Below are positions 13,085 through 19,617 of a stretch of DNA of 64,000 nt, piece by piece. Both the position numbers and the translations under genes were made by a program. Source of the DNA: Alphaproteobacteria bacterium (GTDB lineage Bacteria > Pseudomonadota > Alphaproteobacteria > UBA828); contig WTGU01000073.1 in NCBI GenBank assembly GCA_011523425.1, positions 1 to 64,000 on the forward strand, in the 5' to 3' direction. Within the stretch, counting starts at the first letter, position 1. The number at the start of each line of letters is the position of its first letter. The notes under the pieces were generated by a model. That model was not told the origin of the DNA. It made no database searches and saw only the letters and a program-made list of their open reading frames with translations.

Positions 13085-13297
13085 GTGGACGCGGCACGCA
13101 TCGTCATCGAGGTCCTGCAGTATTACGGCTATGTCGGCCTCGCCGTCGCCGCCGCCTTCCTGCTCTATGGCATCGAGCGGGTGGATGTCCGTGCGCGGCG
13201 TGTTTACGCCTTCCGCCCGCTCCTGATCCCCGGCTGCATCGTGCTCTGGCCGCTGGTCATCTGGCGCTGGGTCGAAGCCGAGCGGCAACGGGGCTGA
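13085..13297 (+). CDS. small membrane protein of the redox cluster (70 aa)
   Basis: A 70-residue protein, GTG start at 13085 preceded by a strong purine-rich ribosome site (ggggggtgga region, 13073-13082). Two hydrophobic helices are visible (about residues 15-28 and 45-60), separated by an Arg-rich loop. I do not recognise a family. It is 10 bp before another small membrane protein and then the ferric-reductase-like gene, so it is probably an accessory subunit or assembly factor of that membrane complex. Confidence 0.6.
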   Translation: MDAARIVIEVLQYYGYVGLAVAAAFLLYGIERVDVRARRVYAFRPLLIPGCIVLWPLVIWRWVEAERQRG

Positions 13298-13307
13298 GGG
13301 CACCCTC

Positions 13308-13487
13308 ATGCTGCGTCGGCACCGCGCCGCCCACGCCTACATGTGGAAGGCGCTCGCGATCTTCCTGCCCGCCATGCTGATCGCGGCGCTCGCCATTCGC
13401 CAGCACGGGCCGACGGAGAAGCCCGCCGTCCAGCTCGAGGAGCCCGCGACCGGAGCCGGGGCATCCGCCGAGGGGACCGAGTCGTGA
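13308..13487 (+). CDS. small single-pass membrane protein of the redox cluster (59 aa)
   Basis: A 59-residue open frame from ATG 13308 to TGA 13487. One hydrophobic helix (about residues 13-30) follows a His/Arg-rich N terminus, and an acidic Pro/Ala-rich tail would face the other side. It fits tightly between two cluster genes (10 bp after one, 16 bp before the next), which is the main reason to accept it. Family unknown. Confidence 0.55.
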   Translation: MLRRHRAAHAYMWKALAIFLPAMLIAALAIRQHGPTEKPAVQLEEPATGAGASAEGTES

Positions 13488-13503
13488 GGGGGGCGTGCGG
13501 ACG

Positions 13504-14586
13504 ATGAGCGTGCGCTACGCGCCGGTCGGCTGGAACCGTAACAAGATCTTCTACGACGTGGTGCTGCTGGCCGCCGTCGTCGCCTACATCCTTCTCTACA
13601 TCAAGATCGCGCCGAGCTTCCAGGACGTCACCCGGCCCACCAGCGGGGCGATCCTCAGGGCCCAGGCCTTCGGCACCTGCGCCTTCCTGATGCTCACCTT
13701 CATCCTCTGCATAGGGCCGCTCGCACGGCTGGATACGCGCTTCCTGCCGCTGCTCTACAACCGCCGCCACTTCGGCGTGATCACCTGCGCGGTCGCCTTC
13801 ACCCACGCGAGCACCATCGTTAGCATCTACTTCTCGTTCAGCCCGCTGAACAAGTACGTGGCCGTGCTGGCGAGCAACACGAGCTACGACCGCTTCCTCG
13901 GCTTCCCCTTCGAGACCTTCGGCATCTTCGCGCTCTTCCTGCTGCTGGTGCTGGCGGCGACGAGTCACGACTTCTGGCTCAGGTTCCTGACGCCGCCGAT
14001 CTGGAAGGCGATCCACATCTCGATCTATGTCGCCTATGCGGCGATCGTCTGCCACATCGTGCTTGGCTCGCTGCAGTCGAAGCAAAGCCCGCTGCTGGCC
14101 GCCGTCGTGGGCCTCAGCGTGATCGCGGTCACCGGCCTGCACCTGATCGCCGGGCGCATCGAGCGGCAGAAGGACCGCAACACCGCCGAGAGCGCGTCCG
14201 AGAGCACCGCTGAGGCGCCCTGGGTCTTGGCCGGCCAGGTGGACGATATCGCCGACGGGCGCGGCATCGTGGTGGCGCTGGAGGACGGCGAGCGCGTCGC
14301 GGTCTTTCGCTACGGCGACAGGCTGTCGGCGCTCGCCAACGTCTGCGCCCACCAGAACGGCCCGCTCGGCGAAGGGCGCATCGTGGACGGCTACGTGACC
14401 TGCCCGTGGCACGGCTTCCAGTACCGGCCCAGCGACGGCTGCTCGCCGCCCCCCTTCACCGAGAAGGCCGCCACCTACCGTCTCAGGCTCGACGGCAGGC
14501 GGATCCTGCTCGACCCCCGGCCCAACGAGCCCGGTACCCATGTCGAGCCGGTGCGCGTCACGCCAACGAGTGAGACGGAGGCATAG
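13504..14586 (+). CDS. ferric-reductase-like membrane protein fused to a Rieske [2Fe-2S] domain
   Basis: Two modules in 360 residues. Residues 15-215 form a membrane domain of about six helices with His pairs at 89/101 and 171/184, the arrangement that holds two haems in ferric reductase-like proteins. Residues 238-345 form a Rieske domain with Cys281-x-His283 and Cys300-x2-His303, the complete cluster ligand set. No FAD/NAD-binding reductase domain is present, so electrons must come from or go to a partner. A partner candidate is the Rieske/FMN protein four genes downstream. I chose ATG 13504 because the GAGGGG site at 13485-13493 is better spaced for it than for GTG 13495. The electron donor and acceptor are unknown. 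Confidence 0.8.
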   Translation: MSVRYAPVGWNRNKIFYDVVLLAAVVAYILLYIKIAPSFQDVTRPTSGAILRAQAFGTCAFLMLTFILCIGPLARLDTRFLPLLYNRRHFGVITCAVAFTHASTIVSIYFSFSPLNKYVAVLASNTSYDRFLGFPFETFGIFALFLLLVLAATSHDFWLRFLTPPIWKAIHISIYVAYAAIVCHIVLGSLQSKQSPLLAAVVGLSVIAVTGLHLIAGRIERQKDRNTAESASESTAEAPWVLAGQVDDIADGRGIVVALEDGERVAVFRYGDRLSALANVCAHQNGPLGEGRIVDGYVTCPWHGFQYRPSDGCSPPPFTEKAATYRLRLDGRRILLDPRPNEPGTHVEPVRVTPTSETEA

Positions 14587-14587
14587 C

Positions 14588-15376
14588 ATGGCAGGCCGCG
14601 CGCGCGACCCCGGCTTCTTCGTCGGCTACCTGAACACCGTGCCGCGTCCGCTCGCGATCTTCCTGGTGGTGGTCGCCGCGGCGCTCGTGGGCGGCATGGC
14701 GGGATTGGCCTTCGCGCTAGGCACCAACGCGAACGATCCCGGCGACGGTACGTTCGCGCGCAAGCTCGGCAAGCAGGAGATGACGGGGGTCCTGCTGGAG
14801 AAGCCCTATCCGATCCTGCGCGTGCGCCCGGACGCCAAGAATCCCGAAGCCCGCACGGTCATGCTCACGGTGCCCGGCAAGCGCAGCGTCAAGCGCCGCG
14901 GCCGCAAGCTCTTCGGCCAGCTTGTGGACGTGAAGGGTTTCATGTTCCAGCGCGGCGACATCGACATGCTGCAGGTCCAGGGCAAGAAGTCCCTGCAGGC
15001 GGTAGAGGCGGGCGAAGGCGAGCCGCCGCCGACATTCACCCCGGCCCCGTCCGAACCCCTCGGCCGCTGGCGGCTCATCGGCGAGATCTGCGACAGCAAG
15101 TGCCATCTGGGCGCCATGCGGCCTGGCGACGGGCTCGCGCACAAGGCTTGCGCCAACCTCTGCATCTCCTCCGGCGCGCCGCCGATCTTCGTGACGCAAG
15201 AGGAAGGCGCGGTCGCCGGCGAGACCTTCCTGCTGATGGCCGACGAGGCGGGTGGGCCGCTCCCGGACCACTTCGGCGACTACGTGGCGGTCCTTATCCA
15301 GCTCGAAGGCGAGGTCGAGCGCCTCGACGACCTCCTGGTCTTCAAGGTCGACATCGACAAGGCCAAGGTGCTCTGA
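14588..15376 (+). CDS. membrane-anchored four-cysteine protein of the redox cluster
   Basis: A 262-residue protein with one N-terminal membrane helix (about residues 20-43) and a large domain most likely on the periplasmic side. Near residues 165-200 it has Cys168-x3-Cys172-x15-Cys188-x3-Cys192, with His173 and His185 nearby. This pattern could bind a metal or an iron-sulfur cluster, or form disulfides. The surrounding residues 'IGEICDSKCHLGAMRPGDG' look like a conserved functional centre, but I cannot name the family with confidence. It starts two bases after the Rieske/ferric-reductase stop, so the two are surely co-transcribed. Confidence 0.65.
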   Translation: MAGRARDPGFFVGYLNTVPRPLAIFLVVVAAALVGGMAGLAFALGTNANDPGDGTFARKLGKQEMTGVLLEKPYPILRVRPDAKNPEARTVMLTVPGKRSVKRRGRKLFGQLVDVKGFMFQRGDIDMLQVQGKKSLQAVEAGEGEPPPTFTPAPSEPLGRWRLIGEICDSKCHLGAMRPGDGLAHKACANLCISSGAPPIFVTQEEGAVAGETFLLMADEAGGPLPDHFGDYVAVLIQLEGEVERLDDLLVFKVDIDKAKVL

Positions 15377-15379
15377 GCG

Positions 15380-15619
15380 ATGCGCAACTTCGCCTGGATC
15401 GTTGTCGGCGCGATCGTGACCGCCGGCCTCGGCTACGCCTCCTGGTGGGTCTATCTGGAGGTGCAGCAGCAGATTCGCGGCACGCTCATCTCCGGCTTCG
15501 GCATCTTCGCGGGCGTCATGGGCGCCTTCGCTCTGCTGGGTGTCGCCCACACCGTCTCCAGGCAAGCCAAGCGCCTGCTGCGCAGACGCGGAATATCCTT
15601 GGCCGACGCAGACGAGTGA
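15380..15619 (+). CDS. small two-helix membrane protein of the redox cluster (79 aa)
   Basis: A 79-residue protein with two hydrophobic helices (about residues 3-25 and 36-57) and a basic 'RQAKRLLRRRG' cytosolic stretch followed by an acidic end. It begins three bases after the previous stop. No family recognised. Its position and size suggest a small subunit of the membrane complex formed by the neighbouring proteins. Confidence 0.6.
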   Translation: MRNFAWIVVGAIVTAGLGYASWWVYLEVQQQIRGTLISGFGIFAGVMGAFALLGVAHTVSRQAKRLLRRRGISLADADE

Positions 15620-15683
15620 GGGGGCGCGTGACCATCGAGAGGACGCCGCGCCGGGCGCGCGCGGCGGCGGAAGGCTGGGGCCC

Positions 15684-17294
15684 ATGAACAGGATACCGAT
15701 CAAGTCGCTCGACGAGCTGGAGGACCGCAAGCCGGCCTACGCCCTGGTCGGCGACGTCGATCTCTGCGTCGTTCGCTACGACGACCGGGTCTCGGTCTTC
15801 TACGGCCGCTGCCTGCATCGCGGCGCGCTCATGGCCGACGGCTACGTCGACGGCGAGAACCTGATCTGCGGCGTGCATTACTGGGACTACCGCCTCGATA
15901 CCGGCGTCAGCGAGTACAACAACGAGGAGATCCTGCCCAAGTTCACCTCGTGGATCGAGGACGGCGAGGTGCTGGTCGATGCGGACGAGATCGGCGCCTG
16001 GGAGAAGGACCACCCGCAGCCCTTCAGGCGCGACGAGTATCTGGGCCTCTACGCCGACACGCACCCTGCGCCCGAGGAGCCCCACGTCGGGCTCATTCAG
16101 GGCTACGCCAGGGACGGCCTGACGAAGACCGGCCATCACGGCGTCGTCGTCGCCATGGGCGTGCCGCGCCAGGACCTGCCGAGCTGGGACGACATCCAGT
16201 TCGTCACCGCGCAGCTCCACCGCATGCCGCATCTCGACGACGAGCCCGTGGGCTCCGAGGTGGTGATCGGCCCGAATGCGCAGAAGCCGCTCACGCTCGC
16301 CATCCCGCTGCTGGTCTCGGACATGAGCTTCGGCGCGCTGTCGGAGCCCGCCAAGGTCTCGCTCGCGCGGGGCGCCGAGCTTTCCGGCACCGGCATCTGC
16401 TCGGGAGAGGGCGGCATGCTGCCGGAAGAGCAGCAGGCCTGCAGCCGCTATTTCTACGAGTACGCCTCGGGCCGCTTCGGCTTTTCCTGGGACAAGCTCG
16501 AGAACGTGCAGGCCTTCCACTTCAAGGGCGGGCAGGGGGCGAAGACCGGCACCGGCGGGCACCTGCCGGGCGAGAAGGTGAAGGGCAAGATCGCCGAGGT
16601 GCGCGGCCTGCCCGAAGGCTCGCCCGCGGTCTCGCCGCCGCGCTTCCCCGACTGGTCCGACTGGCGCCAGGTGCGGGACTTCGCCGACGAGGTCCGCAGC
16701 CATACCGGCGGCATCCCCATCGGCTACAAGCTCTCGGCCCAGCACGTCGAGAAGGACATCGACGCCGCCCTCGAGGTGGGGGTCGACTACATCGTCCTGG
16801 ATGGCCGCGGCGGCGGCACCGGGGCGGCGCCGCTCATCTTCCGCGACAACATCTCGGTGCCGACGATTCCGGCACTGGCGCGCGCGCGGCGCCATCTCGA
16901 CGCGTCGGAGCGCGGGGACGTGACGCTGGTGATCACCGGCGGACTGCGCAAGCCGGCCGACTTCGCCAAGGCGCTGGCGCTCGGCGCGGACGCGGTGGCC
17001 GTCTCCAACGCGGCGATCCAGGCGATCGGCTGCCTCGGCATGCGCGCCTGCCACACCAACAACTGCCCGGTCGGCATCGCGACGCAGAAGCCGCATCTGA
17101 CCGCGCGCATCGAGGTGGAGAAGTCGGCGCGCCGGCTCGCCAACTTCTTCGAGGCGAGCGTCGAGCTGATGAAGATCATGGCGCGCGCCTGCGGCCATTC
17201 TCACCTGAGCGGGCTCTGCCGCGACGACCTCGTGACCTGGAAGGAGGACATGGCGCGCCTCTCGGGCGTCGCCTACGGCGGCGTCGGCGCCTGA
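15684..17294 (+). CDS. Rieske domain fused to glutamate synthase-like FMN/[3Fe-4S] domain
   Basis: A 536-residue fusion. Residues 1-105 form a Rieske domain with Cys43-x-His45 and Cys62-x2-His65. Residues 150-530 match the FMN-binding synthase domain of glutamate synthase, seen in 'LLVSDMSFGALSEPAKVSLA', 'GTGICSGEGGM', 'FKGGQGAKTGTGGHL' and 'YIVLDGRGGGTGAAP'. The [3Fe-4S] ligands are Cys450-x5-Cys456-x4-Cys461. No glutaminase domain is present, so it is not a complete glutamate synthase. Known relatives include orphan 'glutamate synthase family' proteins of unsettled function and N-methylglutamate synthase subunits. In context it may pass electrons between a small metabolite and the upstream Rieske/ferric-reductase-like membrane protein. 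The ATG at 15684 follows the purine-rich 'ggaaggctgggg' and starts right at the Rieske fold. Confidence 0.85.
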   Translation: MNRIPIKSLDELEDRKPAYALVGDVDLCVVRYDDRVSVFYGRCLHRGALMADGYVDGENLICGVHYWDYRLDTGVSEYNNEEILPKFTSWIEDGEVLVDADEIGAWEKDHPQPFRRDEYLGLYADTHPAPEEPHVGLIQGYARDGLTKTGHHGVVVAMGVPRQDLPSWDDIQFVTAQLHRMPHLDDEPVGSEVVIGPNAQKPLTLAIPLLVSDMSFGALSEPAKVSLARGAELSGTGICSGEGGMLPEEQQACSRYFYEYASGRFGFSWDKLENVQAFHFKGGQGAKTGTGGHLPGEKVKGKIAEVRGLPEGSPAVSPPRFPDWSDWRQVRDFADEVRSHTGGIPIGYKLSAQHVEKDIDAALEVGVDYIVLDGRGGGTGAAPLIFRDNISVPTIPALARARRHLDASERGDVTLVITGGLRKPADFAKALALGADAVAVSNAAIQAIGCLGMRACHTNNCPVGIATQKPHLTARIEVEKSARRLANFFEASVELMKIMARACGHSHLSGLCRDDLVTWKEDMARLSGVAYGGVGA

Positions 17295-17435: not shown

Positions 17436-18494
17436 CTACAGCGTATCCGCGATCGCCTTGTTCGCAGCCGGGATCTCGTCGACGGTGCCGAAGTAGGCGT
17501 GCCGCGACATGTCGGGCGAGTACTTGCTCGCCGGCGGGCGGCGGCCGAGCGCCTCCGCCATGCTGCGGATGTGGTGGGGTGCCGCGCCGCAGCAGACCCC
17601 GAGATAGTTGACGCCGAGCGCGTATGCGTCTCTCGCGAATTCCGCGATCTCGTAGCGGTTGCAGGCGAAGGGGTCGAGCGCGGTGGGGAAGGGCCGGCCC
17701 TCCGGCAGGCAGGCGCAGTCGGGATCCTTCAGCGAGAGGAAGGTCGGGTCGTCCCCGCCGGTGCGGTAGGCGACCGGCAGCGCCGCCACGTGGCAGTCCA
17801 CCGCCTCGCGGATCGGGCCCAGCAGCGGCAGCATGGAGGCAGGTCCGCGAACGCAGTTGAGCCCCACGACATCGGCGCCCGCGTCTTCGAGCCGCCTGGC
17901 CGCCTCGGCCGGGCTCAGGCCCTCGCGCGTCTCCGGCTCGCGGAAGATGGCGAGGGTGATTACCGCCGGCAGCCCGGCCGCCTTGATAGCCTCGAGCGCG
18001 AGCAGGGCCTCGTTCGCGTGACCGATGGTCTCGGCGACGATGTAGTCCACGCCCTCGTCGACCGCCCAGCCCACCTGCTCGTCGAACATGGCGCGCACGG
18101 TGCGGGCGGAGTCCGCGTCGCCGTCGACGAAGATGTTGGAGTTGCTCACGTTGCCGGCGACCAGCGCGTTTCCTTCGGCCGCCACCTCTCGCGCCAGCCT
18201 GAGCGCGGTGCGGTTCATCTCCTCGAGGTCGTCCTCCCTGCCGATCAGCCGGAGCTTCTCGCGATGGGCGTAGTAGGTGAAGGCCAGCACCACGTCGGAG
18301 CCCGCGCGCAGGAACTCGCGGTGCAGCTGGGCCACCGCGTCGGGGTGCTCGAGCACCGCTTCCGGCACGTAGGGGCCGGCGGTGAGGTAGCCGCGGCTCT
18401 CGAGCGCGAACAGGTAGCCCTCGGCGCAGATCACCGGCCCGGCCCCGAGCCGCTCCAGCAAGCCTGCCGTGCCAGACGCTGCGGTATCGGTCAT
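17436..18494 (-). CDS. homocysteine S-methyltransferase family protein, copy 1
   Basis: A 352-residue zinc-dependent methyltransferase of the betaine-homocysteine / S-methylmethionine-homocysteine type, a TIM barrel. The zinc ligands are visible as Cys214 in 'VVGLNCVRGP' and Cys301-Cys302 in 'LGVCCGAAPHH'. The methyl donor could be a betaine, S-methylmethionine or a sulfonium compound; nothing in the window decides this. It is 64 bp downstream of a paralogue of exactly the same length with long stretches of identity, a clear tandem duplication. The pair follows a desaturase gene in the same direction. Confidence 0.85.
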   Translation of the reverse strand: MTDTAASGTAGLLERLGAGPVICAEGYLFALESRGYLTAGPYVPEAVLEHPDAVAQLHREFLRAGSDVVLAFTYYAHREKLRLIGREDDLEEMNRTALRLAREVAAEGNALVAGNVSNSNIFVDGDADSARTVRAMFDEQVGWAVDEGVDYIVAETIGHANEALLALEAIKAAGLPAVITLAIFREPETREGLSPAEAARRLEDAGADVVGLNCVRGPASMLPLLGPIREAVDCHVAALPVAYRTGGDDPTFLSLKDPDCACLPEGRPFPTALDPFACNRYEIAEFARDAYALGVNYLGVCCGAAPHHIRSMAEALGRRPPASKYSPDMSRHAYFGTVDEIPAANKAIADTL

Positions 18495-18558
18495 GCGCGC
18501 ATCCTCCGTGGTTCCGGCGCGCGTGCCGGTGGGCGCCGCCCGGCAGCGGCGGCCTGCG

Positions 18559-19617
18559 CTAGAGGTTACCCTTGTACGCCTTGTAGTCGGCGGGAATCTG
18601 GTCGGACGTGCCGTAGAAGGCGTGCTGGGACATGTCGGGCGAGTAGCGGCTCGCCGGCGGCCGGCGGCCGAGCGCCTCCGCCACGGCGCGGATGTGGTGC
18701 GGGCCTGCGCCGCAGCAGACCCCGAGATAGCTGACGCCGAGCGCCTGCGCCTCCCGGGTGAACTCCTCGATCTCGTAGCGATTGACCGTGAAGGGGTCGA
18801 GCGCGGTGGGGAAGGGCCGCCCCTCCGGCAGGCAGCCGCAGCCCGGATCGCTCAGCGACTGGAAAGTGGGCTCCTCCTCGGTCGTGCGGTAGGCCACGGG
18901 CAGCGCCGCGACGTGGCAGCCCACCGCCTCGCGGATCGGGCCCAAGAGCGGCAGCATGGAGGCCGGTCCGCGCGTGCAGTTGAGCCCCACGACATCGGCA
19001 CCCGCGTCCTCGAGCCGCTTGGCCGCCTCGGCCGGGGTCAGGCCGTCGCGCGTCTCGGGCTCGCGGTGGATGGCGAGATTGATCACCGCCGTCTGGCCTG
19101 CGGCCTTGATCGCCTCGAGCGCGAGAAGGGCCTCGCTGCAGTAGGAGATGGTCTCGGCGACGATGAAGTCGACACCCTCGTCGACCGCCCAACCCACCTG
19201 CTCGTCGAACATGGCGCGCACGGTGCGGGCGGACTCCGCGTCGCCGTCGACGAAGATGTTGGAGTTGCAGACGTTGCCGGCCACCAGCGCGTCGCTTTCC
19301 AGGGCCGCCTCCCGCGCGAGCCGGAGCGCGGTGCGGTTCAGCTCCTCGAGTGCGCCTTCCCTGCCGATCAGCCGGAGCTTCTCGCGGTGGGCGTAGTAGG
19401 TGAAGGCCAGCATCACCTCCGAGCCCGCGTGCAGGAAGTCCCGGTGCAGCCGGGCCACCGCGTCGGGGTGCTCGAGCACCGCCTCCGGCACGTAGGCGCC
19501 GGCGCTGAGGTAGCCGCGCCGCTCGATCTCGAAGAGGTAGCCCTCGGCGCAGATCACCGGCCCCCGGGCCAGCCGTTCGAGCAGACCCGCTCCGCCGGCC
19601 ACGGTGGTGTCAGCCAT
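18559..19617 (-). CDS. homocysteine S-methyltransferase family protein, copy 2
   Basis: Second member of the tandem pair, also 352 residues, with Cys214 and Cys301-Cys302 at the same positions as zinc ligands. Segments such as 'CAEGYLF', 'VLAFTYYAHREKLRLIGRE'-like and 'NIFVDGDA-SARTVRAMFDE' are shared almost unchanged with copy 1. Differences cluster in a few loops (for example 'NVSNSNIF' against 'NVCNSNIF', 'GHANEAL' against 'SYCSEAL'), which may mean different donors or subunits. Its start lies three bases after the desaturase stop, so it is translated from the desaturase transcript. Confidence 0.85.
   Translation of the reverse strand: MADTTVAGGAGLLERLARGPVICAEGYLFEIERRGYLSAGAYVPEAVLEHPDAVARLHRDFLHAGSEVMLAFTYYAHREKLRLIGREGALEELNRTALRLAREAALESDALVAGNVCNSNIFVDGDAESARTVRAMFDEQVGWAVDEGVDFIVAETISYCSEALLALEAIKAAGQTAVINLAIHREPETRDGLTPAEAAKRLEDAGADVVGLNCTRGPASMLPLLGPIREAVGCHVAALPVAYRTTEEEPTFQSLSDPGCGCLPEGRPFPTALDPFTVNRYEIEEFTREAQALGVSYLGVCCGAGPHHIRAVAEALGRRPPASRYSPDMSQHAFYGTSDQIPADYKAYKGNL

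Follow-up and report, generated by a model that had tools for sequence, protein, structure and literature searches.

The subject of this report is a run of six genes, lettered A to F in their order at positions 13085–17294, in a 64,000-nucleotide stretch (the window) of contig WTGU01000073.1 from an alphaproteobacterium of the UBA828 lineage. Genes A–E centre on a cytochrome related to MsrQ and carrying a Rieske domain (protein C), and gene F encodes a fusion of a Rieske domain with a glutamate-synthase-like domain (protein F, here Rieske-GltS). We consider it somewhat better than an even chance (probability about 0.55) that A–E form an MsrQ-like conduit which is fed by exchangeable Rieske-tagged flavoenzymes of the cytosol and moves electrons outward. 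Cytochromes with a ferric reductase domain (FRD) are widespread in bacteria, and MsrQ has been described as the one prokaryotic FRD protein whose physiological function is clearly identified (PMC11031084). If our reading is true, the core unit A–E and three kinds of Rieske-tagged partner would make a second physiological class of prokaryotic FRD proteins, and would give electrons from the oxidation of amino-acid-like compounds or 2-oxo acids a way in that involves neither NADH nor a free flavin reductase. A literature search retrieved no paper combining the terms Rieske, 'ferric reductase-like transmembrane' and glutamate synthase, and the combination of Rieske, pyruvate oxidase and glutamate synthase gave a single match, the topic of which was electron bifurcation.

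Domain make-up of the cytochrome and of Rieske-GltS

The product of gene C (13495–14586, plus strand, 363 amino acids (aa), with an alternative start possible at ATG 13504) matches the Pfam families Ferric_reduct and Rieske. It consists of an MsrQ/YedZ-like domain of six transmembrane (TM) helices and a C-terminal Rieske domain with a complete set of ligands in the C-x-H...C-x2-H pattern (C284, H286, C303 and H306); hydropathy and the positive-inside rule predict that the Rieske domain lies in the cytosol. The homology to MsrQ is detected by hhalign (E=2.9e-6). E. coli MsrQ (YedZ), the six-TM ferric-reductase-like cytochrome of the MsrPQ system of methionine-sulphoxide repair, carries R77, H91, H151 and H164 where protein C has R90, H104, H174 and H187, and the alignment of protein C relatives shows R90, H92, H104, H158, H174, H187 and H216 to be invariant. 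The haem-type, ferric-reductase-like domain proposed in an earlier, sequence-only reading of the window is thus of the MsrQ type, and the amendment needed is that the canonical four-histidine set is absent, its first position being occupied by Arg90 as in YedZ/MsrQ. The rule separating the canonical haem histidines of NOX-type proteins from the arginine of YedZ-type ones is found in the accessible text of a survey of the FRD superfamily published in 2013 (PMC3591440). The same text lists an architecture, M4, that joins a ferric-reductase domain to a Rieske domain; M4 is also listed with FMN, unlike protein C, and no operon, partner or function is given for it there.

Several known identities were tried for protein C and rejected. 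Membership of MsrPQ does not fit, since the NCBIfam model for MsrQ (NF003831) yields 34.8 bits against a cut-off of 130 and no molybdoenzyme MsrP is found beside the core of the window or among the recurrent annotated neighbour families at related loci. Protein C further differs from MsrQ in its Rieske domain, in the additional invariant residues H92, H158 and H216, and in its gene partners, which are A, B and D instead of MsrP. NOX proteins and full-length ferric reductases possess four haem histidines together with FAD and NADPH domains, whereas protein C has Arg90 and no FAD/NAD domain. A Rieske ring-hydroxylating oxygenase was likewise set aside: the Rieske domains of proteins C and F are fused to the FRD and to Glu_synthase, and there is no oxygenase or mononuclear-iron domain.

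Gene F (15684–17294, plus strand) encodes a protein of 536 aa in which a Rieske [2Fe-2S] domain (ligands C43, H45, C62 and H65) precedes an FMN-binding Glu_synthase domain (PF01645, 300.5 bits) and a [3Fe-4S] motif, C450-x5-C456-x4-C461. The earlier statement that the cluster ligands are intact is correct for both Rieske motifs and for the [3Fe-4S] motif, and the reported lack of a flavin/NAD reductase domain and of a glutaminase domain agrees with the Pfam scan, which found no glutaminase (Ntn) domain in protein F and only the Rieske domain N-terminal to the synthase domain. The large subunit of glutamate synthase (GltB) shares the FMN-binding domain and the three-cysteine motif. Protein F scores about 100–118 bits against solved GltS proteins and 127 bits against the GltS family model, for which the cut-off is 1047. 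The segments PGEGGQ and PPPHHDIYSIEDL, both conserved among the solved GltS proteins, read TGTGGH and PPRFPDWSDWRQV in protein F, while SGEGG, GAK and the arginine after KV are kept. We take the compared segments to have roles in the 2-oxoglutarate site, and given the changes in the first two the substrate of protein F need not be 2-iminoglutarate. The amidotransferase-like and other companion subunits that, as we presume, belong to the N-methylglutamate synthase and dehydrogenase systems (MgsABC and MgdABCD) are not present among the six genes. In one Roseobacter locus (L153:2919-4463) the Rieske-GltS gene beside the core has lost the second half of the Rieske domain, with the second Cys-x2-His.

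Distribution of the core and of its Rieske-tagged partners

A scan of bacteria and archaea in which each species was represented by a single genome returned at least 584 stretches with relatives of protein C, and the locus counts given here rest on the best 80 of these; genes in unannotated loci were called by a simple script, and the genome searches were a loose first pass with scores for some candidates only. All 80 loci are alphaproteobacterial. The order A-B-C-D is kept in essentially all of them, across the class, and this recurrence places the cluster far beyond chance. The distribution is patchy, the core being present in 18 of 385 alphaproteobacterial genomes, and when 219 genomes sampled from the phylum were searched, all core matches fell within Alphaproteobacteria.

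Gene F behaves differently. At 32 of the 80 loci, which represent many lineages, it is found no more than about 4.2 kb from the core (same-strand in 30), and no Rieske-GltS is encoded near the core in the other 48; gene F stands 3' of E in the genus of the window and 5' of A in most other lineages. Rhizobium plasmids have A–E and not F, and a genome of the same family as the window (G009) has the core without F. The six genes of the window are indeed tightly packed on one strand, as had been noted (gaps of 1–64 bp, in order 10, 7, 1, 3 and 64), but the notion of a complete six-gene module fails, because F is missing near those 48 loci and from 11 of the 18 core genomes, and other Rieske-enzymes occupy the place beside the cytochrome. 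Judging from these sequence comparisons, the conserved unit is A–E, or at minimum A-B-C, with F as an exchangeable partner.

At the level of whole genomes, full-length Rieske-GltS was found in eight of the 385, seven of which are among the 18 with the core (Fisher p=1e-9, a value that overstates the strength of the association, as the seven genomes belong to five families and are not phylogenetically independent). The eighth genome, without the core, is 67% complete, and one further genome (G364) was left out of the counts because both its Rieske-GltS and its second Rieske-enzyme, described below, are cut by contig ends. In four of the seven shared genomes, from two genera, the core and Rieske-GltS are not adjacent: they lie about 19 kb apart in two (G163 and G030) and on different contigs in the other two (G143 and G246). 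The co-occurrence search proposed with the sequence-only reading therefore does link the core with F, only not as a fixed set of six, and a functional link between Rieske-GltS and the Rieske-cytochrome is supported by this association, unlinked cases included.

Two more enzymes with an N-terminal Rieske domain appear at related loci. The first is a fusion of about 660 aa of a Rieske domain with the N, M and C domains of a thiamine pyrophosphate (TPP) enzyme, for which the best-scoring model is the quinone-dependent pyruvate oxidase of the PoxB family (386 bits, cut-off 742); PoxB lacks the Rieske domain. At 68% identity or more this Rieske-TPP protein occurs in six of the 385 genomes, all of which have the core and Rieske-GltS. 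None is encoded near the window, and the search of the window's genome gave no close match. The second, in one lineage (G235 and G399), is a Rieske–FMN_red (flavodoxin-like) fusion directly following A-B-C, and genes D and E were not detected there. The same Rieske-cytochrome is thus accompanied by flavoenzymes of three unrelated folds, all of them with the Rieske domain at the N-terminus.

Where the core is lacking, the iron–sulphur module may be a different one. In four such genomes the nearest GltS relatives share with protein F the catalytic domain (65–67% identity) and an N-terminal [2Fe-2S] module, the latter made up of two CDGSH domains in place of the Rieske domain. Because these CDGSH forms group together in one clade whose sister is the haloarchaeal Rieske-GltS, the simplest history is probably one exchange of Rieske for CDGSH. 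At least three distant Rieske-TPP proteins from core-lacking genomes carry extra CDGSH or Fer4_19 domains N-terminal to the Rieske domain. Pairings of CDGSH with Glu_synthase and with Rieske domains have been noted before (PMC5859297). We tentatively suggest, with rather less assurance than the conduit itself deserves, a plug-and-socket respiratory system in which unrelated Rieske-tagged flavoenzymes would dock on one MsrQ-like cytochrome and a Rieske/CDGSH swap would rewire the acceptor when the cytochrome is absent; if this is true, the iron–sulphur domain serves as an exchangeable connector.

Proposed electron path and competing explanations

MsrQ itself receives electrons from a flavin reductase in the cytosol and hands them on, by way of haem, to an enzyme of the periplasm (PMC11031084). 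In the conduit that we propose, the Rieske domain of protein C would take the place of the flavin reductase as the cytosolic input. The Rieske-tagged flavoenzymes (GltS-like in the window, TPP-dependent or FMN-reductase-like elsewhere) would oxidise a small cytosolic substrate, and we infer, taking the cofactor sites to be occupied and the two Rieske domains to come into contact, that electrons would go from flavin, through the [3Fe-4S] cluster where there is one, to the Rieske centre of the enzyme and on to that of protein C. The interpretation that comes most naturally is a transfer between the two Rieske centres and onward to a membrane haem. From haem b in protein C the electrons would leave outward to a final acceptor that may be quinone or the periplasmic protein D. 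These predictions could be tested in culturable strains of Roseibium/Labrenzia, Pseudovibrio and Rhizobium.

Protein D (gene D, 14588–15376, plus strand, 262 aa, present in 77 of the 80 loci) is a candidate for the next carrier. AlphaFold gives it one N-terminal TM helix and two OB folds (mean pLDDT 88.5), which hydropathy and the positive-inside rule predict to be periplasmic. The second OB fold holds a site invariant over 64 aligned sequences, formed by C172, H185, C188 and C192. What had been described as an anchored four-cysteine protein is indeed anchored, but only three of the cysteines are invariant, together with a histidine, and C168 is replaced in several lineages. A sequence search against the Protein Data Bank (PDB) gave no match, and comparison of the predicted fold with the PDB gave only weak OB-fold matches (best E 0.033), from which no function was transferred. 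The CDGSH/mitoNEET proteins bind [2Fe-2S] through three cysteines and one histidine; protein D has two OB folds and no match to Pfam zf-CDGSH, and was not assigned to that family. Stand-alone relatives of the domain carry signal peptides and have an SCO1/SenC family gene nearby in five of the eight genomes inspected. These are proteins of 138–150 aa (L067–L079 and L239–L246) sharing the 3Cys+1His motif of the second OB domain, in an operon with an uncharacterised protein of 170–180 aa; the neighbouring gene in the five genomes is copper-chaperone-like.

Several observations weigh against the outward conduit, in addition to the phylogenetic dependence of the shared genomes. Eleven of the 18 core-positive genomes have neither Rieske-GltS nor a close Rieske-TPP, and the core there would have to draw on some other electron donor. 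Rieske-TPP proteins of 53–66% identity exist in core-lacking genomes. Haloarchaeal plasmids encode Rieske-GltS, with a 661-aa protein of the Rieske-TPP type nearby in two of three (Pfam-checked in one), and no core was detected on these plasmids, the chromosomes not having been searched; the enzyme is therefore not strictly core-dependent, and a Rieske domain does not imply the core. Together with the CDGSH-GltS relatives, these plasmids go some way towards the GltS-like protein without membrane partners that the sequence-only reading had named as contrary evidence. Finally, the reactions of GltS enzymes are usually reductive, which leaves room for flow in the opposite direction.

In such a reverse flow, quinol or a donor in the periplasm would supply electrons, by way of protein D, haem and the two Rieske centres, for a GltS-like reductive amination or similar reduction in the cytosol. 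Canonical GltS reduces 2-iminoglutarate by means of reduced FMN (PMC8097209), and its [3Fe-4S] cluster takes electrons from outside. We regard this direction as unlikely, since the pyruvate-oxidase-like Rieske-TPP and the Rieske–FMN_red partners are natural electron donors and electrons move outward in the characterised FRD proteins (PMC11031084). It is also improbable, in our judgement, that the core and the enzyme merely belong to a shared response and exchange no electrons, the core performing a periplasmic redox repair like that of MsrPQ and Rieske-GltS having a soluble partner of its own. The haloarchaeal enzymes without a detected core are consistent with that explanation, as are the SCO1/SenC operons of the stand-alone D relatives and the DsbD/DsbA, ECF sigma/anti-sigma and peroxiredoxin-like genes near Rhizobium loci; the strong co-occurrence, even of unlinked genes, and the three different Rieske-tagged flavoenzymes adjoining the same Rieske-cytochrome speak against it. 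That F adjoins the core by chance in the genus of the window, the two being unrelated, as its changed position and the F-less genome of the same family might suggest, is very improbable and is rejected by its proximity to the core in many lineages and by the genome-level association.

The small membrane proteins and the flanking genes

The remaining members of the core, all on the plus strand, are small. Gene A (13085–13297) encodes a 70-aa protein with two predicted TM helices and has a homologue 5' of the cytochrome in 79 of the 80 loci. Gene B (13308–13487; 59 aa, one predicted TM helix) and gene E (15380–15619; 79 aa, two predicted TM helices, variable sequence) gave tblastn matches in 36 and 38 loci, counts that are probably too low as both genes are short and variable. 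Pfam assigned no family to the products of A, B and D, and the only two matches for that of E were far under cut-off.

Transporter genes recur beside the core or Rieske-GltS. In loci of the Roseobacter group (L143, L146, L153, L156 and L161) the gene directly 5' of the core encodes a transporter of the TctA family and is itself preceded by genes that fit TctC/TctB, and this is a possible clue to the substrate. In several Alphaproteobacteria the gene immediately 5' of Rieske-GltS encodes an NhaP-like antiporter, and one haloarchaeal Rieske-GltS plasmid has a Na+/H+ antiporter gene. Taken with the branched-chain-type ABC transporter of Roseibium, these genes are suggestive but mixed, and they were not used to name a substrate. 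Neighbours of cores without a Rieske-tagged enzyme (squalene synthase, GST, MTTB, malic enzyme, an arylmalonate-decarboxylase-like protein and others) were considered as partners and set aside, no recurrent pattern being seen.

In Rhizobium and related strains (L111/L112 and L039–L041) genes for a Rieske-less TPP enzyme, a CoA-transferase III and an OpgC-like protein recur beside the core. On plasmids of Salinirubellus and Halorarius (L217:5624-10683 and L219:2963-10680) the Rieske-TPP-type and Rieske-GltS genes have as neighbours an M20 hydrolase, a TauE-like exporter, a dihydrofolate-reductase-like gene and merA. Around the core of the window itself Pfam identifies STAS, P450 and homocysteine S-methyltransferase domains. 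The last of these belongs to the first of two tandem 352-aa paralogues encoded on the minus strand 3' of gene F (17436–19617), which falls in the homocysteine S-methyltransferase family (PF02574) under every equivalog cut-off; the close likeness of the second to the first was judged by eye, and 352-aa genes stand at the equivalent position in other genomes of the window's genus.

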